Source: a virus. From it: a DNA stretch of 22,537 nucleotides. Made by a program: the position numbers and the translations under genes. A model generated the notes under the pieces. That model searched no databases. It was given only the letters and a program-made list of their open reading frames with translations, and was not told the origin of the DNA. The DNA lies in the IMG/VR virus record IMGVR_UViG_3300043468_000329, positions 1-22,537 of that record, one strand, 5' to 3'. This document shows positions 948 through 20,766 of this stretch, one piece after another; within the stretch, counting starts at the first letter, position 1, and every line of letters starts with the position of its first letter.

Positions 948-1639
948 TGACTATTGAAGAAAACCCATCAACTATTGCATGGGTAACCTTGACAAATGGA
1001 AGAAAAGAATATTTTGAAAAATCAAGACCTTCTTGGTACCAAAAAATGCATGGAAATATAGTTGAAGAGATAATCGTTGACACTTCAGGAGATTCTGAGT
1101 ATTTTGATTGGCTAACAAAAAATTACCCTAGCGCTAAAGTTATTCCATTAGGCAAAACAAGTTTAAGTTATGCAAAATCTGTAAAGTTTTTGCTTGATGT
1201 ATGTTCATCAATAGATTGTGACTATATATTTCATTTAGAAGATGATTATATTTTAGAAAAAGACATTGTTCTTGAGGATGCAATTGATATATTAAAAGAA
1301 AACGAAAATATTGTTCAGGTTCATTTTATAAGACAGCCATGGATTCAAGAAGAAATAGATGCAGGAAGTGTTTTAAACTATTGCAAAGGTTTTGGTATTT
1401 CTATGGATGAAAAACAAAACAGCAAATCTTCGTGGGTTGAGCATACTTGTTATTTTACATTTGGACCAAACATATATAAAAAAGATCTTGTGTTTACGCA
1501 ATGGAATACAGATAAAGACCCAGAACTAGAATTTTACAGAGTTTTAATATCAAATAAAAATAAAACTGCAACATTTGGAAAACTTGATGATCCAAATATT
1601 GTAACGCACATAGGTCACTATAGGTTGGGAACAAAATGA
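947..1639 (+). CDS. Glycosyltransferase-like protein (GT-A fold, family 2-like)
   Basis: About 230 residues from the ATG at 947, chosen because AGGAAA lies 6 bases upstream and the ATG overlaps the previous stop; an in-frame ATG at 926 would add seven residues but has no ribosome site. The N-terminus reads as a beta strand (STIAWVTLTNGR) and the centre has YIFHLEDDYIL, an acidic cluster at about residues 98-100 like the metal- and nucleotide-sugar-binding DxD of GT-A enzymes. The likely role is transfer of a sugar from a nucleotide donor to a virion or host glycan; donor and acceptor cannot be read. The end overlaps the next start by four bases (ATGA), so it is co-translated with the GT61/JmjC-like gene. 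Confidence 0.65.
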   Translation: MTIEENPSTIAWVTLTNGRKEYFEKSRPSWYQKMHGNIVEEIIVDTSGDSEYFDWLTKNYPSAKVIPLGKTSLSYAKSVKFLLDVCSSIDCDYIFHLEDDYILEKDIVLEDAIDILKENENIVQVHFIRQPWIQEEIDAGSVLNYCKGFGISMDEKQNSKSSWVEHTCYFTFGPNIYKKDLVFTQWNTDKDPELEFYRVLISNKNKTATFGKLDDPNIVTHIGHYRLGTK

Positions 1640-3237
1640 TAAAATTAACATGTGATAATTTAAAACAAGAAAAGTTTCTAGATTATGAGTTTGACGCAAT
1701 AGAGATAAATAATTTTTCTGTAAAAAATGATAAAAGTAAAAAGATTTTTGTTCCTGGGGAGACATACTTATTTCCAACATATTCTGCATACGGACACTCT
1801 CTTGTAGACGTATATGCACAGTTTAAAGTTCTTCAATTAAAGTATAAAGACATTAAACCATTCTTCTATGAGCAAAGCGAAAAAGGCTATTTGTTTAATG
1901 AAAGAATATTAAAAGATCAAATGTTTATGTTAGGGTACAGTGATGCAGAAGTATTAGACATATCAAAAGGTAATTATGTTTTTGAAAAAGTTATAATGTT
2001 TTTTGATATGAATAATACATTCCCAGAAGACTTTTATTCTAAAAATGGAGCCACAAGAAGTTCTCACTACTTCCCATTTTGCAACTGCTATAGAGGAACA
2101 GAGCCTTGCGGAGAAAGTAAATATTTTAAGTATAACTATTTAGCAATAGATATGCTAAAAGAAAGTTTTAAAGAATGGTTTAAAACTGAAAAAACGGAAA
2201 AGTTTTTTATTTCAAGAGAAAGATATAACAAAAAATATCAAGATCAAATAAAATACTATTCACAAAAAGCAGTTTTGTCAGATCAAGAAAAACTTATGTA
2301 TCATATTGCAAAAACCAGGTCTACAGAAAAAGAAAAATATATAGAACAACTATTTAGGGAAAATGGATACAAAATTATATATGCAGAAGACTATACCCTA
2401 AAGCAGCAAGTTAAACTTTTTAGTTCTGCAAAAGTTATTGCAAGCGTTTCAGGTACTGGACTTTTTAATACCTTCTGGTGTGACAAACAGACAAAGGTGT
2501 TTGAGATTTTAGCAGTTCCAGAATATAAGTATCACTACAAGGAGTTTGCAGAGCACTCTGGAACAGATCATTCATATATTGATGTTATTTCTCTTTCTAC
2601 TGAAGACTCTATTAAAAAAATCCAAGAATCTTTAGATCAAAACCTATTAAGAACTGAATTAGAAAATATTGATATGGATATCGTAAGACAGGCTATTGCA
2701 GAAAATAGAATTCATATTTTTAAGAATGTGTTTCCCAAGAGACCATCATGGGACACTCTTATGTCAGTTACTTCTAACTATGTTGAACAAGACTTAGAAA
2801 AGTTTCCAGAGAGGTCATACCTCTTAAATGATTTTGTTGAGGGCGAATCTTCTGACATGAGACTAAAATGTAGATTTTGGTCAAGGATGGCATTTCAGTT
2901 ATATGATCCAGAAGATGCGTACATGTCAATAATCCCAGAACTAGAACCAGTAACTGCTTGGGCTCTTTCTGAGTATGGCTCAGACATTTATACTGGAAAC
3001 TTTGGTTTAATATCTTTGATGAAAAACAGGGGAGTAGTTGGAAGCAAGCATAGAGACTATGTTGATCAGTTCCAGTGGGTAGTTAAAGGTGAAATGATTT
3101 GGCGTACTGGAGAGAACTTAGAAAATGAAGACCATGCAGTAGAGGGCGACTTTATCTTTGTTCCTAAAAATCTTGCTCACGAAGTTGAGACGACAAAGGC
3201 TCCAAGAGCAGCAATTAACCTTATTTTAAGAAACTAA
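1636..3237 (+). CDS. Two-domain protein: GT61/DUF563-like glycosyltransferase + C-terminal JmjC/cupin-like oxygenase domain
   Basis: A 533-residue protein. Residues about 35-330 resemble the GT61/DUF563 family: a YGHSLVD segment, FFISRERY near 190-200, KIIYAEDYTLKQQVKLFSSAKV, then SVSGTGLFNTFWC (about 270-282) and VFEILAVPEYKYH. Residues about 385-533 read as a double-stranded beta-helix: KHRDYVDQFQWVVKGEMIW gives a possible His472-x-Asp474 iron pair, followed by GDFIFVPKNLAHEV with the distal His515. That pattern suits a JmjC/cupin_8-type Fe(II)/2-oxoglutarate oxygenase. The pairing could couple glycosylation and hydroxylation of one target. The start overlaps the upstream stop (ATGA). The gene ends four bases before a hairpin shared with the convergent lysozyme gene. 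The GT61 call is firmer than the oxygenase call. Confidence 0.65.
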   Translation: MIKLTCDNLKQEKFLDYEFDAIEINNFSVKNDKSKKIFVPGETYLFPTYSAYGHSLVDVYAQFKVLQLKYKDIKPFFYEQSEKGYLFNERILKDQMFMLGYSDAEVLDISKGNYVFEKVIMFFDMNNTFPEDFYSKNGATRSSHYFPFCNCYRGTEPCGESKYFKYNYLAIDMLKESFKEWFKTEKTEKFFISRERYNKKYQDQIKYYSQKAVLSDQEKLMYHIAKTRSTEKEKYIEQLFRENGYKIIYAEDYTLKQQVKLFSSAKVIASVSGTGLFNTFWCDKQTKVFEILAVPEYKYHYKEFAEHSGTDHSYIDVISLSTEDSIKKIQESLDQNLLRTELENIDMDIVRQAIAENRIHIFKNVFPKRPSWDTLMSVTSNYVEQDLEKFPERSYLLNDFVEGESSDMRLKCRFWSRMAFQLYDPEDAYMSIIPELEPVTAWALSEYGSDIYTGNFGLISLMKNRGVVGSKHRDYVDQFQWVVKGEMIWRTGENLENEDHAVEGDFIFVPKNLAHEVETTKAPRAAINLILRN

Positions 3238-5580: not shown

Positions 5581-7173
5581 ATGGCAACAGTAAATAAAGA
5601 TTTTAAGATTAAGAGTGGACTCGTCGTTGAAGGCCTACAAGGTACAATCAACGGTGAGGTAATTCTTACAGAAAATGCAGGAGATCAATACATTCTTGAT
5701 TTGATTGGTGGAGAAACACTAGTCAAGTCAGTATCAAACCAGTTTGATGTTTCAGCAGGTGGAGAACTTTCACTTGATCGTACAGTAGTAGATGCTTATT
5801 ATGATGCAGCAGGTTCAGCAGACGATGCAGAGACAGCAGCAAACTCTTACACAGATGGAAGAGAAACAGCAATTACAACTGCTTATGAAGCATACGCAGA
5901 CCAGGCAGAAGTAGACGCTAAGGCTTACACAGACACTCGTGAGACAGCAATTACAACTGCTTATCAGGGATATGCTGACACAGCAGAGGCAGATGCTAAG
6001 TCTTATGCAGATAGCCTTGCACCAAACTATGACCCAGCAGGTTCAGCATCAACAGCACAGTCTAACGCAGAAGATTATGCAGATGCAAAGATTAGCGATG
6101 CAAATGGCACTGCTACAGATAAGGCTTGGTCAGCATACAAGACAAGCACAGAAATTGGTCTTGCACAGGCAGCAGCAGAACAGCATGCAGACGATGCAGT
6201 TGCAGCCCTTGTAGACGGTGCTCCAGCCCTTCTTGACACACTTAATGAGTTGGCTGCAGCATTGGCTGATAATCCAAACTATGCAACTGATGTTGCTAAC
6301 CTTGTTGCAGGCAAGCAGAACAATCTAACTGAAGGCGCAAACATTGATATTACAGACGATGTAATCTCTGTAGTTGGCCTTGATTCAGCAGACATCTCAG
6401 ACTTCAACACAGCAGCAGTTGCAGCAACAGCAGCAGCATACGATATGTATGGTGCAGCAGCAGCAGCACAATCAGCAGCAGAAGACTACGCAGATGGCCT
6501 TGCAATAAACTACGATGCAGCAGGTTCTGCTTTAACAGCACAGACTAATGCTGAATCTTTTGCTACAAATGCAATTAATGATCTTGACACAGACGATATT
6601 GAAGAGGGTGCAACAAACCAATACTTCCTAGATTCTCGTGCCAAGACTTCAGCAGCAGATCTTTTGACTGGTGCAAATCTTACAAATATCACAATCACAG
6701 GATCAGGTGCAGGACTTACTATTACCGCAGAAAACGGTGTAGCAGATTCTACAACTACTGATCTTGCAGAAGGTACAAATAAGTACTTTACAGATGCTCG
6801 TGCTCGTGATGCGGTAGATGGAACAGATCGTTCATTTACTTCTGTTGAGTTAAACTCAGTTGCTAAGCAGATTGCAGCAACACTATCAGCACCTACAGCA
6901 GGAATTCAAGTAGCACACGCCTTCGCAAAGGCTGACTACCGTTCAGCAGAATACCTTGTAAAGGTTGCCTACGGAACACATACTGAAATATCAAAGGTCC
7001 TTTTGACACTTGACTCTTCAGATAACATTGCAATCACTGAATACGGAATTGTTGGAACAAATGGCTCAGCGTCATCAATTTCAGCAGGTATTTCAGGAGC
7101 AAACGTACAACTACAGGTAACAACCGCTAACAATGACTCAACAGTTACTGTTATGGGTACACTTCTAGTTTAA
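5581..7173 (+). CDS. Tail fibre protein with Ala-rich repetitive shaft
   Basis: A 530-residue protein with AAGGAG upstream of the ATG. The N-terminal cap MATVNKDFKIKSGLVVEG is also used by the gene at 7209. Residues about 70-330 are Ala/Asp/Tyr-rich repeats (AYADQAEVDAKAYTD, YDPAGSASTAQSNAEDYAD), likely coiled coil or triple helical. They include a GAPALLDTLNELAAALADNPNYAT unit and the TNxYFxDxRA motif twice, both common in fibre proteins. The last 85 residues match the C-terminal module of the 5117 gene. A host-contact fibre is the likely role. Poly-GCA/CAG runs in the DNA follow from Ala coding. Confidence 0.75.
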   Translation: MATVNKDFKIKSGLVVEGLQGTINGEVILTENAGDQYILDLIGGETLVKSVSNQFDVSAGGELSLDRTVVDAYYDAAGSADDAETAANSYTDGRETAITTAYEAYADQAEVDAKAYTDTRETAITTAYQGYADTAEADAKSYADSLAPNYDPAGSASTAQSNAEDYADAKISDANGTATDKAWSAYKTSTEIGLAQAAAEQHADDAVAALVDGAPALLDTLNELAAALADNPNYATDVANLVAGKQNNLTEGANIDITDDVISVVGLDSADISDFNTAAVAATAAAYDMYGAAAAAQSAAEDYADGLAINYDAAGSALTAQTNAESFATNAINDLDTDDIEEGATNQYFLDSRAKTSAADLLTGANLTNITITGSGAGLTITAENGVADSTTTDLAEGTNKYFTDARARDAVDGTDRSFTSVELNSVAKQIAATLSAPTAGIQVAHAFAKADYRSAEYLVKVAYGTHTEISKVLLTLDSSDNIAITEYGIVGTNGSASSISAGISGANVQLQVTTANNDSTVTVMGTLLV

Positions 7174-7715: not shown

Positions 7716-9260
7716 ATGGCAACAAGAATGCAACAGCGCAGAGGAACTGCAGAACAATGGACGGCTGCGAACCCAACTCTAGCAGCAGGAGAAATCGGAT
7801 TTGAAATTGATACTAATCAGTTTAAGATGGGTGACGGAGCAAACGCATGGTCAGCACTATCTTACTTTAAGAACCTAGAAGACCTAGGCGGATCTTTAGA
7901 TGACTACGTTCCAGTAGCACTTGTTGGAGAGCCAGATGGTATTGCAACACTAAATGCCAGTGGACATATTCCAATTTCACAACTAGGATCACTAATTACT
8001 AATGCCCCAGGAGTCTTAGACACACTAGGAGAAATTGCTGAATTCGTTACAGCAGTAGATACAGCAGTAGATACCCACGAAGCAAAGACTCTTAATGTTC
8101 ATGGCATTGCAGATACAGCGCAACTTGAAACATTAACTGGTGCACAGACAAAGGCTACAGCAGCCCAGTCAGCAGCCGAACTTACAGCAAGTAACGCACT
8201 TACTGCACACAATAATGACAGCACAGATGTTCACGGAATTGCTGACACATCAGTTTTAGCAACACAAACAAATATTTCAACAGCAATAACAGCACACAAT
8301 GATGATACAACAAATGTTCATGGCATTGCAGACACAGCAGCCCTTGCAACTACAGCAGCAACAGCATCAGCAATTGGGACAGCAGTTTCTGACCACAATG
8401 CAGTTACAACAAATGTTCACGGTATTTCAGACACTGCAGCACTTGCAACTAAGACATATGCTGACGGAGCAGTTTCAACTGCAGTCTCAGCACTAACAAA
8501 GTCTTCAGTAGGCCTTGCAAATGTAGACAATACAGCAGATGCAGATAAGCCAGTATCAACAGCAGCACAAACTGCTCTTGACCTAAAGGCACCAAAGGCA
8601 GATCCAACATTCACAGGAACTGTATCAGGTGTTACAAAGGCTCACGTAGGTCTTGGAAATGTTGACAATACTTCAGATGCAGATAAGCCAGTTTCAACAG
8701 CACAGGCTACAGCAATCGCAACTGCTAAGTCAGAGGCTATTGCAGATGCTACATCACAGGTAAATGCAGTAATCGCATCTGCCCCAGCAGCACTAAATAC
8801 TCTTGATGAACTTGCAGCAGCACTGGGTGACGATGCAAACTTTGCAACAACAGTAACAAACTCTCTAGCAGCAAAGGCACCGCTTGCAGACCCAACATTT
8901 ACTGGTACAGTAACTGTATCAGCATCTGGAATAGCATTTTCAGACGGTACTCAAACAAAGTTGGGAGTTCCATCTGTAACAACATTTGCAACAGCAATCT
9001 CATCATCTGCAACACTTGCAGCGGGAGAAGCAGACAAGTTTGTTCCACTAACTGGAGCAGTAACGATTACACTTCCTGCAACAGGATACTCAACTGGACA
9101 GTCAATTGACTTCTACCAGGCTTCAGGAACTGGAGCACAGTTTGCTTCAACCAACAGCGTTGTAGGAACACCAGGTTTGAAGTTCAGAACTACAAACTCA
9201 GTTGTAACAGCAATGAAGACTTCAAGTGGATGGTTGGTCTTCGGAGACCTTTCAGCATAA
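7716..9260 (+). CDS. Tail fibre protein with Mtd-like N-terminal domain
   Basis: A 514-residue protein with AAGGAG upstream of the ATG. Residues 1-50 (TRMQQRRGTAEQWTAANPTLAAGEIGFEIDTNQFKMGDG) match the small N-terminal beta-domain known from the major tropism determinant and many fibres. Residues about 125-245 hold four copies of N/D-VHGI(A/S)DTxxLxT. Next come two copies of VGLxNVDNTxDADKPVSTA with adjoining ADPTFTGTV units, the classic repeat of long tail fibres, and a DELAAALGDDANFATTV unit like that in the 5581 protein. The C-terminal 120 residues are beta-rich with ITLPATGYSTGQSIDFYQ. Host adsorption is the likely role. No reverse transcriptase or variable repeat was seen. Confidence 0.75.
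   Translation: MATRMQQRRGTAEQWTAANPTLAAGEIGFEIDTNQFKMGDGANAWSALSYFKNLEDLGGSLDDYVPVALVGEPDGIATLNASGHIPISQLGSLITNAPGVLDTLGEIAEFVTAVDTAVDTHEAKTLNVHGIADTAQLETLTGAQTKATAAQSAAELTASNALTAHNNDSTDVHGIADTSVLATQTNISTAITAHNDDTTNVHGIADTAALATTAATASAIGTAVSDHNAVTTNVHGISDTAALATKTYADGAVSTAVSALTKSSVGLANVDNTADADKPVSTAAQTALDLKAPKADPTFTGTVSGVTKAHVGLGNVDNTSDADKPVSTAQATAIATAKSEAIADATSQVNAVIASAPAALNTLDELAAALGDDANFATTVTNSLAAKAPLADPTFTGTVTVSASGIAFSDGTQTKLGVPSVTTFATAISSSATLAAGEADKFVPLTGAVTITLPATGYSTGQSIDFYQASGTGAQFASTNSVVGTPGLKFRTTNSVVTAMKTSSGWLVFGDLSA
8094..8453 (+). repeat. Four VHGIADTA coding repeats
   Basis: Four copies of a unit of about 14 residues, beginning N/D-VHGI, start at residues 127, 171, 200 and 233 of the fibre protein, with spacings of 44, 29 and 33 residues. 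The uneven spacing points to separate duplications or losses in a fibre shaft. Confidence 0.8.
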
Positions 9261-9283: not shown

Positions 9284-10888
9284 ATGTCAAAACAAGCAGG
9301 TAGAATGAGCCAGTCGTCAAACGACTTCCTGGCTCCATACGCACCAACCATAGGAACAGCAACAGATGTTGGAACTAACCGTCCATATAACAATGGTGCA
9401 GCGACAGTAACATTTACTGCCACTGGTCCAAACGCAGCAGATTCTTTTACAGTTTATGCTGTTGAAGATCCAACAAAAACTGCAACTGGTGCATCATCTC
9501 CTTTAACAGTTACTGGTCTTTCATCAGCAACCAACTATACATTTAAGGTATACGGAACAAACACAGCAGGTGGCCGTGGATCTGACTCAGCAGCATCAAA
9601 TCAGATCACAGCAACAACTGTTCCACAGGCACCATCTTTAGGAGCAATAACAGTCTCATGCTCTGCTCGTGCCTTGAATGATGGACTTGTAACAGTTGCA
9701 ATGACAGCAAATGCAACTGGAGGAAAAGCAATCTCTGGATACTATGCAGTTTCTAATGGTGGACAAAATGCTTCTTCAGCATCCTCTCCAGTTAGCGTTA
9801 CTGGTTTATTGTCAGCAACAAACTATACTTTCCAGGGAAGAGTTTCTAATGCAAATGGAAACTCTGAACTAACCGCTTCTTCTTCTGCAGTAACTGTAAC
9901 AACAGTTCCAGGACAGGTTACAGCAGTTTCAGCATCATCACCTTCAGCAGGAGTAGACAGAATTACCTGGACAGCACCATCAAACGGTGGTTCAGCAATT
10001 ACTCAATACAACTGGGTTTCATCTGATGGAAAATCTGGAAGCACAGCAGCAACTTCTATTGATATTTCTCAAGAACAGGGAACTGCACAGACTTATACTG
10101 TTACTGCAGTTAATGCTTGTGGAGCAGGGCCAGCATCTGGTGCTTCAAATAGCATAACAACAACATTTTCATTCGTCCCATTCGGAGTGTTTGGATTCTC
10201 CCCATTCGGAGTGTTCTCGTTCTCTCCATTTGGAGTGTTCTCGTTCTCTCCATTTGGTTTCTCCCCATTCGGAGTGTTCGGTTTCTCCCCATTCGGATTC
10301 TCACCATTCGGATTCTCTCCGTTTGGATTCTCACCATTCGGATTCTCACCGTTCTCATTCTCACCGTCTGGATTCAGTTTCACACCACGCTTCATGGCAT
10401 CGCTTGCACCAATGACAAAGGTCAGAATGGCAGACGGATCTATGAAGGCTGCAGAAGACGTTTACGTCGGAGATGTACTAATGTCTGTAGAACTTCCAGA
10501 GTTTGCAAACTCTTACACAACAGAAGAATTGATGGCTTGGACATCAACGCAAGATATTGCAGACCTAACGCTAACTACCACAACAGTTAATAAAGTAACG
10601 ATACATCCTTCTGATAAAGTAATTAGCGTTAATGAAGATGTCTTCTCTCCAAACCACCTTATATTGATAAAGAGAGACGCTACGGTATTCATGTGTAGAG
10701 CAGACAACCTAACTCCTACAGACCTAATTTGGGATTATTCTACCAATGGATGGGCAGAAATATCAGTACTCGAAATGCATGATTATGATCACACAGTTAT
10801 TACTATTAACTGTGAGCCTAACGACCTATTCTTTACACATAGTGCACTAACGCACGACGGTAACGAATGGAACCCAAATCAAGCATAA
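9284..10888 (+). CDS. Fn3-like adhesin with FSPFG repeat arm and C-terminal Hint domain
   Basis: A 534-residue protein preceded by AAAGGAG. Three Ig/Fn3-like domains span about residues 14-100, 106-197 and 199-290; each has a SPxxVTGLxSATNYTF-type strand or the related ITQYNW...AQTYTVTAVN. Residues 295-362 are an FSPFG array. The junction GFSFTP leads to Ser373, the first residue of a Hint domain: SLAPMTKVRMADGS, SPNH with His458 (block B), and FFTHSALTHDGN with His524-Asp525. Only nine residues follow His-Asp. By analogy with hedgehog and bacterial intein-like domains, the Hint unit may release itself and form an ester at residue 372, cutting or attaching the arm. Ser1 and a final Asp are unusual, so activity is uncertain. 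It ends the fibre gene run. Confidence 0.75.
   Translation: MSKQAGRMSQSSNDFLAPYAPTIGTATDVGTNRPYNNGAATVTFTATGPNAADSFTVYAVEDPTKTATGASSPLTVTGLSSATNYTFKVYGTNTAGGRGSDSAASNQITATTVPQAPSLGAITVSCSARALNDGLVTVAMTANATGGKAISGYYAVSNGGQNASSASSPVSVTGLLSATNYTFQGRVSNANGNSELTASSSAVTVTTVPGQVTAVSASSPSAGVDRITWTAPSNGGSAITQYNWVSSDGKSGSTAATSIDISQEQGTAQTYTVTAVNACGAGPASGASNSITTTFSFVPFGVFGFSPFGVFSFSPFGVFSFSPFGFSPFGVFGFSPFGFSPFGFSPFGFSPFGFSPFSFSPSGFSFTPRFMASLAPMTKVRMADGSMKAAEDVYVGDVLMSVELPEFANSYTTEELMAWTSTQDIADLTLTTTTVNKVTIHPSDKVISVNEDVFSPNHLILIKRDATVFMCRADNLTPTDLIWDYSTNGWAEISVLEMHDYDHTVITINCEPNDLFFTHSALTHDGNEWNPNQA
10166..10369 (+). repeat. Phe/Gly-rich FSPFG tandem repeat
   Basis: Residues 295-362 are built of eleven units: eight exact FSPFG plus FVPFG, FSPFS and FSPSG. 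VFG or VFS spacers interrupt the first half, giving a 24-base period early and a 15-base period later. Near-identical DNA units suggest recent expansion by slippage. A minus-strand open frame across it (NGENP repeats) is a shadow. Confidence 0.9.
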
Positions 10889-11869: not shown

Positions 11870-13903
11870 ATGTCAGATTTTTTTAGTTTTAAACTTCCAG
11901 AGGACTTCGTAGAAAAGTACAAAAGCCAAGAAAGCCCATTTGGGTTTAAGGATGCAGCAGAAAATTCACTTGGAGAAATTACTTTTATTCGTACATATTC
12001 TCGCATGAAGGAAGATGGAACTAAAGAAAGATGGCACGAGGTGTGTCGCCGTGTAATCGAGGGTATGTATTCAGTACAGAAGAATCATGCTAAAGAAAAC
12101 CGTTTACCGTGGAATGATTACAAAGCACAGAAGTCTGCACAAGAAGCATTCCAAAGAATGTTTGAATTAAAATGGACACCACCAGGTCGTGGCATGTGGG
12201 CATTTGGAACCCCTATGACTATGGAGAAGAAGAACTCAGCAGCACTACAAAACTGTGCAATGGTTTCAACAAAGGACCTTGATAAGAATGATCCAGGAGC
12301 CTTGTTTGCCTGGGTAATGGATGCATTGATGCTTGGCATTGGTGTAGGGTTTGACACAGTAGGACAGGATAAGAATTTCTCAATCTATACCCCAACAGAA
12401 CCAGAACAGGTGTTCGAAATTCCAGACACTCGTGAAGGCTGGGTAGAGTCAGTACGCCTTCTCATTAACTCTTACTTGAGAGCAAACCAGAGTATTCAGA
12501 AGTTTAACTACGATTTAATCAGACCTCTTGGAGCCCCTATTAAGGGCTTTGGAGGCGTTGCATCAGGGCCTGCACCTCTTATCAAGTTGCACGACCAGAT
12601 AGACCGTGTAATCGGCTCCAGAGGCGGAGAAACACTAGACTCTCGTGCTATCGTAGACCTTGTAAACCTTATTGGTACCTGTGTGGTATCAGGCAATGTT
12701 CGTAGATCAGCAACACTTGCTTTGGGTACAGCAGGAGATGAAACATTTATGAATCTAAAGAATTCAGAGATGTTCCCAGAGCGTAACTCATTTGATCCAG
12801 AGAATCCAGGTTGGGCTTGGATGTCTAATAATTCTATTTCAGCAGAAGTGGGAACAAAGTACGAAGACTATGTAGATTTAATTACAGAAAACGGAGAACC
12901 AGGTTTTATCTGGCTTGATGTTGCTCGTAATTATGGACGACTAAAGGATGCGCCAGACGGTAAGGATTATCGTGTGATGGGATTTAACCCATGTGCGGAG
13001 CAGCCATTGGAATCATACGAACTATGTACACTTGTAGAAGTGCACTTGAATCGTCATGAATCTAAGGAAGATTTCCTGCGTACCCTAAAGTTTGCATACC
13101 TTTATGGAAAGACCGTAACTCTTGTTCCAACACACTGGCCACAAACAAACGGCATTATGCAACGTAATCGTCGTATTGGTACATCACTTACTGGTATTGC
13201 ATCATTTGCAGATCAAAAGGGTTTGCCAATTGTTCGTGAGTGGATGGATGAAGGCTACAACAAGATTCGTCACTATGATCACCAGTACTCTGAGTGGCTA
13301 TGTGTTCGTGAGTCAATTCGTGTAACAACGGTTAAGCCATCAGGATCAGTTTCAATTCTTTCTGGTGCAACTCCTGGAGTTCACTGGGGACCTGGAGGAA
13401 ACTTCTTCCTTCGTGCAGTTCGATTTGGAAACACAGATCCAATGATGCATCTGTTTAAAGCAGCGGGGTACACAATTGAAGACGACGTAGTATCAGCAAA
13501 CACATCAGTTGTATACTTCCCAATTAAGTCAGGTCATCCAAGATCTGAAAAGGATGTTACATTATTTGAGAAGATTGCTCTTGCTGCAACTGCTCAGAAG
13601 TATTGGTCTGACAATGGTGTTTCTGTAACACTTTCATTTGACAAGGAAACAGAGTCAAAGCATGTTGTTCCAGCACTGCATATGTATGAGGGACAACTAA
13701 AGGCAGTCTCATTCCTACCAATGGGAAACCATACATATCCACAACAGCCATATACTCAGATTACTGAAGAGCAATATGAGTCATATATTGGCAAGTTGAA
13801 GCACATTGATTTTGCTGCTATTTATGATGGAGCAGAAAATCTTGAGGCTCAAGGTGAGATGTACTGCACTACAGACTATTGCGAAATAAAGATTGGAAAA
13901 TAA
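11870..13903 (+). CDS. nrdJ: Adenosylcobalamin-dependent (class II) ribonucleoside-triphosphate reductase
   Basis: A 677-residue monomeric class II reductase of the Lactobacillus RTPR type. It reduces ribonucleoside triphosphates to deoxy forms through a thiyl radical made by coenzyme B12, feeding phage DNA synthesis. Visible landmarks are AALQNCAMVS (Cys129, one of the reducing pair), GIGVGFDTVG, SGNVRRSATLALG, FNPCAEQPLESYELC (Cys375 the radical cysteine, Glu377, and Cys386 eleven residues on, as in RTPR), TTVKPSGSVSILSGATPGVHWG, and the C-terminal CTTDYC (Cys666, Cys671) that re-reduces the site from thioredoxin or glutaredoxin. All key residues are present, so it should be active. It depends on host or environmental cobalamin. 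It has GAAAGGA before the ATG, its own extended -10 promoter and a palindrome upstream. Its TAA overlaps the next ATG. Confidence 0.93.
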   Translation: MSDFFSFKLPEDFVEKYKSQESPFGFKDAAENSLGEITFIRTYSRMKEDGTKERWHEVCRRVIEGMYSVQKNHAKENRLPWNDYKAQKSAQEAFQRMFELKWTPPGRGMWAFGTPMTMEKKNSAALQNCAMVSTKDLDKNDPGALFAWVMDALMLGIGVGFDTVGQDKNFSIYTPTEPEQVFEIPDTREGWVESVRLLINSYLRANQSIQKFNYDLIRPLGAPIKGFGGVASGPAPLIKLHDQIDRVIGSRGGETLDSRAIVDLVNLIGTCVVSGNVRRSATLALGTAGDETFMNLKNSEMFPERNSFDPENPGWAWMSNNSISAEVGTKYEDYVDLITENGEPGFIWLDVARNYGRLKDAPDGKDYRVMGFNPCAEQPLESYELCTLVEVHLNRHESKEDFLRTLKFAYLYGKTVTLVPTHWPQTNGIMQRNRRIGTSLTGIASFADQKGLPIVREWMDEGYNKIRHYDHQYSEWLCVRESIRVTTVKPSGSVSILSGATPGVHWGPGGNFFLRAVRFGNTDPMMHLFKAAGYTIEDDVVSANTSVVYFPIKSGHPRSEKDVTLFEKIALAATAQKYWSDNGVSVTLSFDKETESKHVVPALHMYEGQLKAVSFLPMGNHTYPQQPYTQITEEQYESYIGKLKHIDFAAIYDGAENLEAQGEMYCTTDYCEIKIGK

Positions 13904-14511
13904 TGAAAATAGTTAAAGGGTTTATAGAAAAATCAGATTTAGACATAGTTCAAGAGTATATTAAAAATATAAAATTTCATACAAGGGAAGACCATGTACC
14001 ATTGCACGATAATTTATTTGACAACGATGGTACAAAGTTTGACATACATACTCGTGGAGAAATGCCAGACAATGTTTTAGATGTTTTTTCAAAGTACTCT
14101 AGATCCTACTACGATATAGTTCAATCCGAAAATGAAGATTTATATCATCCACCAATGTTTTCTAAGCACTACATAGCAAGATATAGAAGTGGCGCATTTG
14201 CAGAGCCACACAACAATGAAAAGACAAAGCCAGAAGGAACCTACTATTCTTTTATTGTTTGGCAAAATGCAGAAGATGGAGGAGACTTTATCTTCCCTGA
14301 GTTAGATAAATCTTTTAAGCCAGAGCCTGGAGATCTTGTCTATTTTAAAGAAAAGTTTGAAAATAACCATGGTATAACAAAAATAATTTCTGGAGATCTA
14401 TTCTTGTCAGAAGCCTGGATGGGTAAAAGAGGTCAACACTGGATGGAAAATAAAGCATCCTATGAAGAAGTTGACTGGGAAAACTGGGAAATAAAGGGTT
14501 TTTATGAATGA
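13903..14511 (+). CDS. Prolyl-4-hydroxylase-like 2OG-Fe(II) oxygenase with altered active site
   Basis: About 202 residues from the ATG at 13903 (TAATG overlap with the reductase); an upstream start at 13879 would lie inside it and is dismissed. The fold reads as a P4H-type beta-helix: HYIARYRSGAFAEPHNN, SFIVWQN..DGGDFIFPELDKSFKPEPGDLVYFK, NNHGITKI. However, the iron motif HxD is His103-Asn-Asn105, and the usual G-x-R after the distal His156 is GDLFL, so neither the Asp ligand nor the Arg that holds 2-oxoglutarate is in place. It may be a non-catalytic paralogue or partner of the next gene, which it overlaps by eight bases, or use a different chemistry. Confidence 0.65.
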   Translation: MKIVKGFIEKSDLDIVQEYIKNIKFHTREDHVPLHDNLFDNDGTKFDIHTRGEMPDNVLDVFSKYSRSYYDIVQSENEDLYHPPMFSKHYIARYRSGAFAEPHNNEKTKPEGTYYSFIVWQNAEDGGDFIFPELDKSFKPEPGDLVYFKEKFENNHGITKIISGDLFLSEAWMGKRGQHWMENKASYEEVDWENWEIKGFYE

Positions 14512-15013
14512 CCAAATAAAAGTTATAAGAGGGTTCATGGACCCAGAAGATGCGATGCTTGTTTCAGACTATGCCAGGTCTGTCGATTCCTCTTTTACTG
14601 AGTTTGGTAATGGTGAAAAAGAGTTTACATTTCATGCAAAATTTGAAGACTCAGATATTCAAAGCCTTTTAAATTTTTATGGACAACTTTCTTTGAAGTT
14701 TGTAAGAGATAACTACGTGGGCCCATTCCAAGATTATGATAGCACCAAAACCCATATTGCTAGATTTAGTCAAGGGGATGGAATGCACGAACATTTTGAT
14801 TCCACAAAGCCTAATGACATAGCAACTTTAATATATTTAAACAATGATTATGTAGGGGGAGAAATATACTTCCCAGACTATGACGTACACATTAAGCCTG
14901 ATGCTGGAGATCTTGTGTGTTTCCCAGATACTCCAGATTTTGTCCATGGTGTTAAGCCAATAACTGAGGGTATCAGATATACGGCACCACGATGGTTCAC
15001 ACGCATAGTGTGA
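14504..15013 (+). CDS. Prolyl-4-hydroxylase-like 2OG-Fe(II) oxygenase
   Basis: A 169-residue protein. The ATG at 14504 has AAAGGG about 6 bases upstream and overlaps the preceding gene by eight bases in another frame. Complete P4H-type motifs are present: HIARFSQGDGMHEHFDS (His97-x-Asp99), LIYLNNDYVGGEIYFPDYDVHIKPDAGDLVCFP, FVHGVKPI (His148), then GIRYTAPRWF (Arg158 the probable 2-oxoglutarate ligand). It should hydroxylate a protein (often proline) or small molecule using O2 and 2-oxoglutarate. The substrate is unknown; Pro-containing repeats of the Hint-tailed virion proteins are one speculative target. Its TGA stop supplies the TG of the next promoter. Confidence 0.75.
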   Translation: MNDQIKVIRGFMDPEDAMLVSDYARSVDSSFTEFGNGEKEFTFHAKFEDSDIQSLLNFYGQLSLKFVRDNYVGPFQDYDSTKTHIARFSQGDGMHEHFDSTKPNDIATLIYLNNDYVGGEIYFPDYDVHIKPDAGDLVCFPDTPDFVHGVKPITEGIRYTAPRWFTRIV

Positions 15014-18754: not shown

Positions 18755-19159
18755 ATGAATATGGAAGATCCACGTAAAAAGAAGAAGCAACTGCCCAAAA
18801 TGAAGGGGCAAGTGGGCGAGTCCCGTGCAAAAGTTATTGAAAAGCATTATGACTGGGGTCTATATGTGTATAAGAAGGCTAACGGTAAGTGGTTTACGGA
18901 TGGAACAGGTTCAGTTCTCAACATTGAATCAATGAAGGGTGACATCCTCCAAATCTCTAAACTCAAAGAAGCAGCAAAATATTACGGGGATGAAGGAGAT
19001 GGAGAATGCATCTTCGTCCCAGGACTAACAAGAATTTCAGAAGAAGAATACTCTGAGCAAAAACAAAGAATGGCAGAAGGTCTGATTCCTTCTCTTAATG
19101 ACCTTGGTGCAGTTCAGGCAGCCAAGGACACAATTGCTAAGTATGGAAGTGATGACTAA
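18755..19159 (+). CDS. Conserved hypothetical protein upstream of the portal gene
   Basis: A 134-residue soluble protein with a Lys-rich N-terminus (PRKKKKQLPKMKG), a central beta segment (YDWGLYVYKKANGKWFTDGTGSVLNIESMKGDI) and a charged helical C-terminus. The function is not recognised. It is leaderless by promoter position, and its TAA overlaps the ATG of the portal gene, so it should be made in step with the portal and may be a head-assembly accessory. Confidence 0.65.
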   Translation: MNMEDPRKKKKQLPKMKGQVGESRAKVIEKHYDWGLYVYKKANGKWFTDGTGSVLNIESMKGDILQISKLKEAAKYYGDEGDGECIFVPGLTRISEEEYSEQKQRMAEGLIPSLNDLGAVQAAKDTIAKYGSDD

Positions 19160-20766
19160 TGAGTGAAGAAAAAGAATTTTTTATTAGAGCAAAGACAGAC
19201 AGCCCACTTCCAGAAGATGATACATTTACAAAGCAGGACCCTTTTAATCAGTCTTGGGATGTAATTAAAGACCTACAGGGACTTGACTCAAACTTTAAAA
19301 GAAGAACTTCCCGCATCGTAAAGGGAGAAGCAACACAAGGCTATATTGATAGTTCACGAGCAGAAAGCACAGGTCGTGATGGGGCAAAGTCTAAAGAAAT
19401 TAACTCAGGAACAGTATTTAGAAATGCCTATGGACTCTTTGATGTAATTACGCCTCCGTGGAATCTTTATGAACTTGCAAGTTTTTATGACACCTCTTTT
19501 GCTAACCATGCAGCAATTGATGCAAAGGTTGAGAACATTGTAGGTCTTGGATATGAGTTTAAGGTTTCACAAAGAACAATGCTTAAGTTAGAAGCATCAG
19601 AGCCAAAGACAGCAGAGAATGCACGTAAGAGAATTGAACGAGCAAAGATTGAACTAAGTGATTGGCTAGAATCGCTAAACACAGAAGACTCATTTACAAC
19701 AACCATGGAAAAGGTTTTTACAGATCTTCAAGCAACAGGTAACGGGTACCTTGAAGTAGGTAGAACTGTTCGTGGTGATATTGGATATGTTGGACATATC
19801 CCTTCTACAACAATGCGTGTTCGTCGTCTTCGTGATGGCTTTGTCCAGGTTATTGCAAATAAAGTAGTTTACTTCCGTAACTTTGGAGCAAGTAACCCAA
19901 ACCCGCTTGGAACAGATGCTCGTCCTAACGAGATCATTCACTTTAAAGAATACTCACCACTTAATACATTCTATGGAGTACCAGATATTATGTCTGCAAT
20001 CGGATCACTTCATGGAGACCAACTTGCGTCACAGTACAACATTGATTACTTTCAGAATAAGGCAACTCCCAGGTATGTTGTAACACTTAAGGGCGCTAAG
20101 TTATCTGCTGAAGCAGAAGACAAGATGTTTAGATTCTTACAGACTGGTCTTAAAGGACAGAATCACAGAACTCTTTACATACCGCTTCCTGGTGACTCAG
20201 ACACTAACAAGGTAGAGTTTAAGATGGACCCTGTAGAAAATGGAATCCAAGAAGCATCGTTTAAAGAATACCGTAAGCAAAATAGAGATGACATTCTTGT
20301 TGCACACCAAGTTCCTCTTTCTAAGATTGGTGGTTCTGACTCTGCAGCAATCGCAGCAGCACTGTCTCAAGACAGAACATTTAAAGAGCAGGTTGCAAGA
20401 CCAGCACAAAGAAATCTTGAGAAGATGATCAACAAGATAGTAAAAGAAAAAACAGATATTCTGGAGTTTAAGTTTAATGAACTTACACTTACAGATGAGA
20501 TTGCTCAGTCACAGATTATTGAGAGACTTGTTAAGACTCAGGTTATGATGCCAAATGAGGGAAGAGAACTTCTTGGACTTCCTCAGATAGAAGGCGGAAA
20601 TGAACCGTTTGATCCAAAGCCAGAACAGGCAGCAAACGATAATGCAGACCGTGCAAGGGACACCGAAAGAACTAACAACCAGTCTGATGGACCAGCCACA
20701 GTAAGTGGAAGAAATCCAAAAGGCGAAGGTCGTAAATCTGACGACGTGTCCGATATGTCCAAATAG
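19159..20766 (+). CDS. Phage portal protein
   Basis: A 535-residue protein that forms the ring at the capsid vertex through which DNA enters and leaves. It shows the order of the PBSX/HK97-like portal family: an N-terminal arm; ITPPWNLYELASFYDTSFANHAAIDAKVENIVGLGYEF; a wing with DLQATGNGYLEVGRTVRGDIGYVGHIPSTTMRVRR; the DRARPNEIIHFK-like segment (TDARPNEIIHFKEYSPLNTFYGVPDI); then NIDYFQNKATPRYVV, and a stem/crown with HQVPLSKIGG..SAAIAAALSQDRTFKEQVARPAQRNLE. The last ~60 residues are polar and charged (Asp/Glu/Lys/Asn), a common disordered tail. The start overlaps the previous stop (TAATG). The protease and capsid genes follow, as in a standard head operon. Confidence 0.88.
   Translation: MSEEKEFFIRAKTDSPLPEDDTFTKQDPFNQSWDVIKDLQGLDSNFKRRTSRIVKGEATQGYIDSSRAESTGRDGAKSKEINSGTVFRNAYGLFDVITPPWNLYELASFYDTSFANHAAIDAKVENIVGLGYEFKVSQRTMLKLEASEPKTAENARKRIERAKIELSDWLESLNTEDSFTTTMEKVFTDLQATGNGYLEVGRTVRGDIGYVGHIPSTTMRVRRLRDGFVQVIANKVVYFRNFGASNPNPLGTDARPNEIIHFKEYSPLNTFYGVPDIMSAIGSLHGDQLASQYNIDYFQNKATPRYVVTLKGAKLSAEAEDKMFRFLQTGLKGQNHRTLYIPLPGDSDTNKVEFKMDPVENGIQEASFKEYRKQNRDDILVAHQVPLSKIGGSDSAAIAAALSQDRTFKEQVARPAQRNLEKMINKIVKEKTDILEFKFNELTLTDEIAQSQIIERLVKTQVMMPNEGRELLGLPQIEGGNEPFDPKPEQAANDNADRARDTERTNNQSDGPATVSGRNPKGEGRKSDDVSDMSK

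Follow-up and report, generated by a model that had tools for sequence, protein, structure and literature searches.

An aromatic FSPFG array kept by purifying selection precedes a predicted self-cleaving Hint domain in a probable fiber-type phage protein

In the 22,537-nucleotide stretch of the IMG/VR virus record IMGVR_UViG_3300043468_000329 (the window), we found a complete gene of 534 codons for amino acids (9284–10888, plus strand, as are all features below unless stated) whose product carries an array of phenylalanine-rich FSPFG-type units between three fibronectin type III (Fn3) domains and a Hint domain. Computational comparison shows that the array is under purifying selection, and it belongs, as one of several dialects, to a large class of phage proteins that is apparently undescribed. 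The reading we favor, which we put at an even chance, is that the protein is a modular appendage of adhesin or fiber type whose Hint domain cleaves itself off at Ser373, so that the aromatic array becomes the sticky C-terminal tail of the mature protein. A sequence-only reading of the same DNA had pointed to the array as a possible sticky, self-associating or membrane-contacting linker that recalls the FG repeats of nucleoporins, an interpretation that our results support in part.

The protein begins with a basic leader (MSKQAGRMSQSSNDFLA; 9284–9334), which we placed using the listed leaders and the consensus of relatives; the pattern KxxGxxSQxANDFLxP is common to most Fn3-type relatives, and the leader may serve in virion attachment. 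The Fn3 domains (amino acids about 18–293; 9335–10162) were located with Pfam and with an AlphaFold2 (AF2) model of the window protein, run as a monomer with the family alignment; the first domain matches Pfam fn3 (E = 1.3e-9), and the whole three-Fn3 stretch has pLDDT values mostly above 94. The aromatic array (amino acids 295–364; 10166–10375), which stands out by composition, codon comparison and AF2, is followed by a spacer, SFTPRFMA (10376–10399), that joins it to Ser373 (10400–10402). This serine lies eight residues downstream of the array, aligns with Cys/Ser1 of inteins and is, by conservation of position 1, the predicted cleavage nucleophile, with the scissile bond between Ala372 and Ser373. 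The Hint domain itself (amino acids 373–525; 10400–10858) is nearest to bacterial intein-like (BIL) domains according to AF2, Foldseek and profile comparison. It contains the B-block motif S-P-N-H with the catalytic His458 (10646–10657) and ends in His524-Asp525 (10853–10858), where Asp replaces the intein Asn and Gly follows as the start of a 9-amino-acid tail. Pfam fn3, AF2, Foldseek and the family profile agree on the proposed position of the array between Fn3 and Hint. A minus-strand ORF that overlaps the array (10093–10395) was rejected as an antisense artefact.

The 70 residues of the array comprise 27 Phe, 15 Ser, 12 Gly, 11 Pro and 5 Val, with no charged residue. The span first proposed, 10166–10369, is 68 residues long (amino acids 295–362) and in frame with the ORF at 9284–10888; we found that the array extends two residues further, to 10375. 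Counting in the sequence confirmed eleven units of 15 or 24 bases (FSPFG eight times; FVPFG, FSPFS and FSPSG once each), the registers being mixed because some units carry a VFG or VFS insert. Phe accounts for 4.6% of residues in the other window proteins, and the richest 70-residue stretch elsewhere in the window has 11 Phe; thus, the Phe density of the array is not due to chance (binomial p about 1.6e-18) and its description as highly Phe-rich is accurate. AF2 gives the array no confident structure (pLDDT about 45), and this monomer model, which is compatible with a folded multimer such as a trimeric shaft, suggests a disordered aromatic low-complexity segment. The Phe codons of the array are TTC 22 times and TTT 5 times, whereas elsewhere in the window TTT prevails (TTC 65, TTT 224); this preference perhaps reflects avoidance of T runs or an effect on translation rate. 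Three further IMG/VR contigs, assembled from other metagenomes (3300002835, 3300002387 and 3300049595), carry the identical array, and a diverged array of equal length is present in 3300042542 and 3300042673. Since the array recurs in contigs of other assemblies, it is not an assembly artefact.

To follow how the array evolves, we compared the L003 and L006 groups, which were retrieved via the Hint domain and not via the array. Both arrays are 70 codons long and differ by 24 synonymous codons and 1 nonsynonymous codon; because length is kept and synonymous changes outnumber amino acid changes 24 to 1, we conclude that the array is selected and is not a product of assembly or slippage. A second comparison used an array-independent survey, in which two degenerate scans for Hint C-terminal motifs gave 89 non-redundant proteins. 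In this set, pN/pS is 0.20/0.67 in aromatic linkers and 0.18/0.54 in their Hint domains, and it is 0.24/0.58 in non-aromatic linkers and 0.05/0.545 in their Hint domains, indicating that constraint on the aromatic arrays is similar to that on the Hint, and on other linkers weaker. Across 98 pairs, array pN is near 0 and pS about 0.5, values that are biased since most of these pairs were fetched by the array pattern. We do not rank the array above the rest of the protein in conservation, since most loci in that comparison were retrieved by the array pattern and alignments of repeats favor identity.

Some features of the array would suit a neutral repeat made by slippage or recombination: its units of 15 and 24 bases stand in tandem, their number varies among more distant relatives, and some pairs show recombination of Fn3 with Hint modules at the array/Hint border. 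In three pairs (L014/L057, L033/L090 and L033/L127), the Hint domains are nearly identical but the Fn3 parts have diverged, which implies module exchange near this border. However, the synonymous to nonsynonymous pattern and the identical length between relatives contradict neutral slippage, and the synonymous diversity among units indicates that they were not recently homogenized; we therefore consider a neutral origin extremely unlikely. The expectation that array length would vary between relatives fails for the closest relatives, which have 70 codons each, and holds for distant FxPF relatives, whose arrays differ in length, usually by whole units.

The array is one of several repeat dialects found before the Hint. 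The portal relatives of the window phage (at least 599 stretches) were chosen without reference to the array; when we checked 21 large contigs among them, 12 encoded a Hint protein and only 4 had the FxPFxFxPF pattern. The other Hint-positive contigs carry (AFG)n, FAPFGAFG, FSHYAG/FYHG, PPFFPPFF, FSPTPPFGVFG and, once, PTP repeats in the same place. Two further scans detected FSHYG arrays in 10 stretches and AFG arrays in 82; a Hint follows in most of the AFG cases, and some of these matches are due to chance or to antisense ORFs. In the array-independent survey, the 70 amino acids before the Hint have a median aromatic fraction of 0.31, and the FxPF, AFG, FxHY and FFPP dialects cover 70 of the 89 proteins; the linkers of the remaining 19 are VIIAEP, NPGF, FNEPAF, PVGS, xTP and similar. 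Because about a fifth of linkers are not clearly aromatic (VTP, VIIAEP, PVGS and others), aromatic stickiness is not required of every member. Within the FxPF family, the x position accepts only T, S, A or V, 0.9% of residues are charged, and Phe residues are spaced 2–3 residues apart. The dialects have in common dense aromatic residues paired with small or turn-forming ones; neither Pro nor Ser nor any one FG motif is shared by all, so it is probably their sticker chemistry that is preserved. A sticky, self-associating array is plausible.

We considered three other roles for the array. The first is that it is a mere flexible spacer that holds the Hint off the stalk for its reaction, its sequence being irrelevant. 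The great diversity of linkers before the Hint and the absence of structure in the AF2 model fit a spacer, yet the FxPF motif is tightly constrained, amino acids are kept while synonymous sites change, and ordinary spacers are polar whereas these are mostly aromatic. In addition, 13 complete relatives end at the array (see below), where there is nothing to hold away, and we regard a pure spacer as unlikely. The second is a candidate membrane role, in which the array would insert into or contact the host membrane during infection. Its extreme hydrophobic and aromatic content and near-lack of charge agree with this, but Pro and Gly every five residues speak against a transmembrane helix, and the existence of (AFG)n and His/Tyr-rich dialects is more suggestive of stickers than of insertion, making a membrane role quite improbable. 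The third is that Pro/Ser/Thr-rich repeats are substrates of phage prolyl hydroxylases and glycosyltransferases, as in extensin-like modification. Although the window encodes 2OG-Fe(II) oxygenases (13903–14511 and 14504–15013) and a GT61 glycosyltransferase (1636–3237), and S/T-P is frequent in the FSP and VTP repeats, the sister dialects (AFG)n and FSHYAG have no Pro at all. The oxygenase domain PF13640 is found in 10 of 12 Hint-positive and 6 of 9 Hint-negative portal relatives, with no clear association. We rejected such modification as a general role and consider it very improbable for these repeats.

Aromatic residues are heavily under-represented in the low-complexity regions of prokaryotes and phages (PMC6821194), so the array is unusual in known proteomes. 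The rarity claimed for it holds in that respect, but it is not a one-off: the pattern of two FxPFG units matches at least 119 stretches in viral contigs, which also answers the suggested search for FSPFG arrays in other phage proteins. The likeness to nucleoporins stands as a resemblance and not as kinship. Like FG nucleoporins, the array is of low complexity and dense in Phe-Gly (11 FG in 70 amino acids), and aromatic sticker physics likely applies to both. Unlike them, it has a five-residue spacing without long polar spacers, its sister phages use AFG, FSHYG and PPFF, and it belongs to a prokaryotic virus. A phmmer search of the array against PDB chains found no nucleoporin at E ≤ 10, and homology to nucleoporins was rejected. 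Low-complexity repeats of this aromatic, FG-like kind are regarded as characteristic of eukaryotes; here they occur in many uncultivated phages, some of them related to actinobacteriophages by their portal, as selected repeats in several chemically different dialects that normally stand beside a predicted self-cleaving Hint. If our reading is correct, they would offer a prokaryotic counterpart for sticker-spacer physics that is open to testing, and a natural collection of aromatic sticker polymers that come joined to a cleavage domain.

To determine where proteins with the array end, we examined the matches in viral contigs and in prokaryotic genomes. In 84,980 prokaryote species genomes, the FxPFG pattern had 19 matches and a single genuine member, on a 3.2-kb contig of a Chitinophagaceae MAG (L141); with only 1 of the 19 real, a chromosomal origin was rejected. 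Among the viral matches listed, there are 104 distinct proteins, 76 of them complete. Of these 76 FxPF proteins, 13 stop 3–12 residues past the array and the other 63 have a Hint of 143–270 residues, with none in between, and all C-terminal domains examined fall in one BLASTP cluster (77/77). Given that the relatives either stop at the array or extend into a domain whose self-cleavage nucleophile is conserved, the array is probably a C-terminal tail and not the linker that was first proposed, even though it does lie between Fn3 and Hint in the window protein. A separate Hint gene acting in trans for the array-terminated proteins was rejected; none was found elsewhere on the contig in 15 records, some of which are fragments, while positive controls were recovered in 11 of 11 cases. 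The array-terminated proteins L027 and L047 have the C-termini FAPNWYGCAGWC and FAPNWYNCPGPC, respectively, a Cys-containing tail that could cross-link.

In isolated phages, tblastn with the low-complexity filter on found no array, and the Hint relatives there are only distant; we found no description of FSPFG arrays or of a Hint-terminated fiber class in the open literature searched. Deposited relatives do exist in UniProt/BFVD, all from uncultured Caudovirales phage: A0A6J5NYB8 and A0A6J5MFV5 (‘Fibronectin type III’) and A0A6J5NY54 (‘PASTA_pknB’). The first two share this architecture, as both match Fn3 and Hint models. These entries are annotated by one domain only, and we found no functional description of them.

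The AF2 model of the Hint domain has a pLDDT of 88.5. Foldseek against the PDB returned 53 matches at E ≤ 0.001, and those listed are BILs, inteins, hedgehog and a Vint domain; the top match is 6y75 (BIL2, E = 1e-8), followed by the BIL 2lwy, inteins and hedgehog 1at0. The family profile searched against PDB sequences also has a BIL as its top match (2lwy, E = 6.5e-8). Pfam Intein_splicing is found in 11 of 47 family members, and family Hints are often only 20–35% identical to that of the window. Position 1, a few residues past the repeat across homologues, is Ser or Cys in every set compared: 47/47, 161/161, 89/89 (array-independent, non-redundant) and 156/156 (non-redundant; 106 Ser and 50 Cys). 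The nucleophile type goes along with the end of the domain. In Cys1 proteins, the terminal pair is His-Asn in 47 of 50, and position +1 is Lys in 33 of 50 and Cys, Ser or Thr in only 3 of 50. In Ser1 proteins, a terminal Asp preceded by His, Phe or Tyr is present in 91 and Asn in 2, and a few are out of register. The B-block His is found in 25/25 Ser1 members and in 10/22 Cys1 members, where it is otherwise Gln (11/22) or Glu (1/22). As the B-block His is replaced in the Cys1 subclass, not every member need be active. Many Cys1 members (for example L039, L066, L074 and L084) end exactly in His-Asn-Lys-stop, with a single conserved Lys.

The window protein shows the marks of the Hint superfamily, namely the fold, Ser373 and the T/S-x-x-H motif as SPNH458. 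Type A BILs end in His-Asn without a +1 nucleophile and mainly cleave (PMC4031507), and the Cys1 subclass fits this type because it has both features. The window Hint departs from type A in ending with His-Asp, and agrees with it in having Gly, not Cys, Ser or Thr, after that pair. Type B BILs cleave at splice sites without splicing and have a block G unlike that of inteins; the window Hint has Asp for Asn, yet its surrounding block still aligns. It does not qualify as an intein: the Hint lies at the protein end, with a 9-residue tail that starts with Gly and no +1 nucleophile.

The fold, the conserved nucleophile and the B-block His are thus computational results, and cleavage itself is predicted from them. 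Two features count against it: Ser1 is rarer than Cys as a nucleophile, and the window Hint terminates in His-Asp instead of His-Asn. Alternatively, the Hint could be catalytically dead and either cap the aromatic segment structurally or serve as its intramolecular chaperone, a possibility to which we give a small chance. The departure of the Ser1/Asp type from canonical inteins, the replaced B-block His in half of the Cys1 type and the common use of C-terminal capping domains in phage fibers (PMC10579305) all agree with a dead Hint; however, if the role of the domain were purely structural, position 1 would not be Ser or Cys in 156/156 proteins and the terminal Asn or Asp would not track the nucleophile type. 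With a conserved nucleophile, and with Hint-less relatives that end at the equivalent place, cleavage at Ala372-Ser373 is most likely. This layout is retained in hundreds of related phages, in many cases with another Phe/Tyr-rich repeat, which makes sticky tails produced by self-processing probable.

In the mechanism that we propose for such self-processing, the basic leader and three Fn3 domains would form a folded stalk, and the C-terminal Hint would be a single-use self-cleaving domain. The protein would be translated with the Hint folding last; Ser373, helped by the B-block His458, would carry out an N-to-O acyl shift at Ala372-Ser373; and hydrolysis or attack by another nucleophile would free the Hint, so that the aromatic array would become the mature C-terminus. 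The exposed array could then act as a set of aromatic stickers that bind its own copies in an appendage bundle, or a host or virion surface. Different phages would use different repeat dialects for one physical job, and some would skip processing, their protein simply ending at the array. A further possibility, to which we assign a slim chance, is that the Hint transfers the aromatic tail via a (thio)ester to a specific amine or hydroxyl acceptor on a virion protein or the host envelope, fixing an FG-like self-associating polymer covalently; the repeat dialects would in that case be interchangeable adhesive polymers.

Hint/BIL autoprocessing is already known, and the phage class that joins an array to a Hint is a variant that we have not found described. 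The BIL domains 2lwy (C. thermocellum) and 6y75 (Tetrahymena BUBL1 BIL2) share the Hint fold and position-1 nucleophile with the phage domain. As in BILs, no homing endonuclease is evident and, in the Cys1 subclass, the +1 residue is usually not Cys, Ser or Thr; unlike BILs, the phage Hint is the C-terminal end of an appendage protein, with a short tail beyond it and a low-complexity repeat before it, and the Ser1/Asp-ended subclass dominates. Hedgehog (1at0; Foldseek E = 2.2e-5) also has a C-terminal Hint, as the phage protein does with its predicted cut at the Hint's own N-terminus, and in both the N-terminal product would be left modified or free. In contrast to hedgehog, the phage Hint has no visible sterol-recognition region, is viral, and would leave a product that ends in an aromatic tail. 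Phage fibers already use self-cleaving C-terminal chaperones of the Peptidase_S74 type, which are removed from the adhesin in T5 and K1F (PMC10579305), as is predicted here. However, the Hint fold is unrelated, there is no triple-beta-helix shaft, and a Pfam scan of the window protein gave no Peptidase_S74 match. The phage Hint may represent a convergent answer to the same task, one that additionally keeps the sticky tail in solution up to the point of cleavage; if our reading is correct, it would be a second, independent route to fiber maturation by C-terminal self-cleavage.

A repeat followed by a terminal Hint recurs in phage fibers. Collagen-like virion structural proteins of Alexandraviruses (Erwinia pEa_SNUABM_2 gp110 and Dickeya AD1 gp108) and of Yersinia fHe-Yen9-02 have a homologous terminal Hint with Cys1 and His-Asn (L152, 3038–4480; L153, 2017–3456; L154, 2047–3489), and the ‘large intein domain protein’ of Phage NCTB has a poly-Gly repeat and a Hint. 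These jumbo-phage and NCTB proteins differ in having Gly-X-Y or poly-Gly repeats, not aromatic arrays, and are about 25–31% identical to a family Hint. The Alexandraviruses and fHe-Yen9-02, which are cultured, have neighboring collagen-like fiber genes without a Hint.

The neighboring genes point to a place on the virion. Upstream of the array gene are a tail-fiber gene (5581–7173; PHROG tail fiber phrog_2631, E = 8.5e-13) and an adjoining fiber gene with an Mtd_N domain (7716–9260; Pfam Mtd_N, E = 7.2e-13, with PHROG structural and tail-fiber matches); downstream are the portal gene (19159–20766; Pfam Phage_portal, E = 3.4e-34) and head protease genes. The array gene is thus encoded among tail and fiber genes, as expected of a phage appendage. 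An Mtd_N-type signature lies near 52 of 60 array genes as compared to 114 of 400 random positions, a crude background in which strands are mixed. The window portal is 45–47% identical to portals of Streptomyces phages of about 120–134 kb, and together with the window GC content of 38.5% this suggests an actinobacterial host. At the start of the window, and truncated by it at the 5' end, is a paralogue (3–686) with VTP repeats (70–168) and a Hint whose Ser1 is at 198–200; this Hint is 73% identical to that of 9284–10888. In relatives of the paralogue (L008, L009 and L013), the full protein is 860–1010 amino acids long, with PASTA-like and Cys-rich modules split by VTP repeats.

Several other genes of the window were recorded. 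The two oxygenase-type genes at 13903–15013 are adjacent and near the portal gene, one of them falling below the Pfam cut-off, and several portal relatives have up to nine PF13640 matches. In the gene at 1636–3237, the Glycosyltransferase 61 (GT61) domain is fused to a C-terminal cupin-like domain, and the gene overlaps the end of a glycosyltransferase-like ORF (926–1639). A B12-dependent ribonucleotide reductase gene (11870–13903) lies within the block of structural genes.
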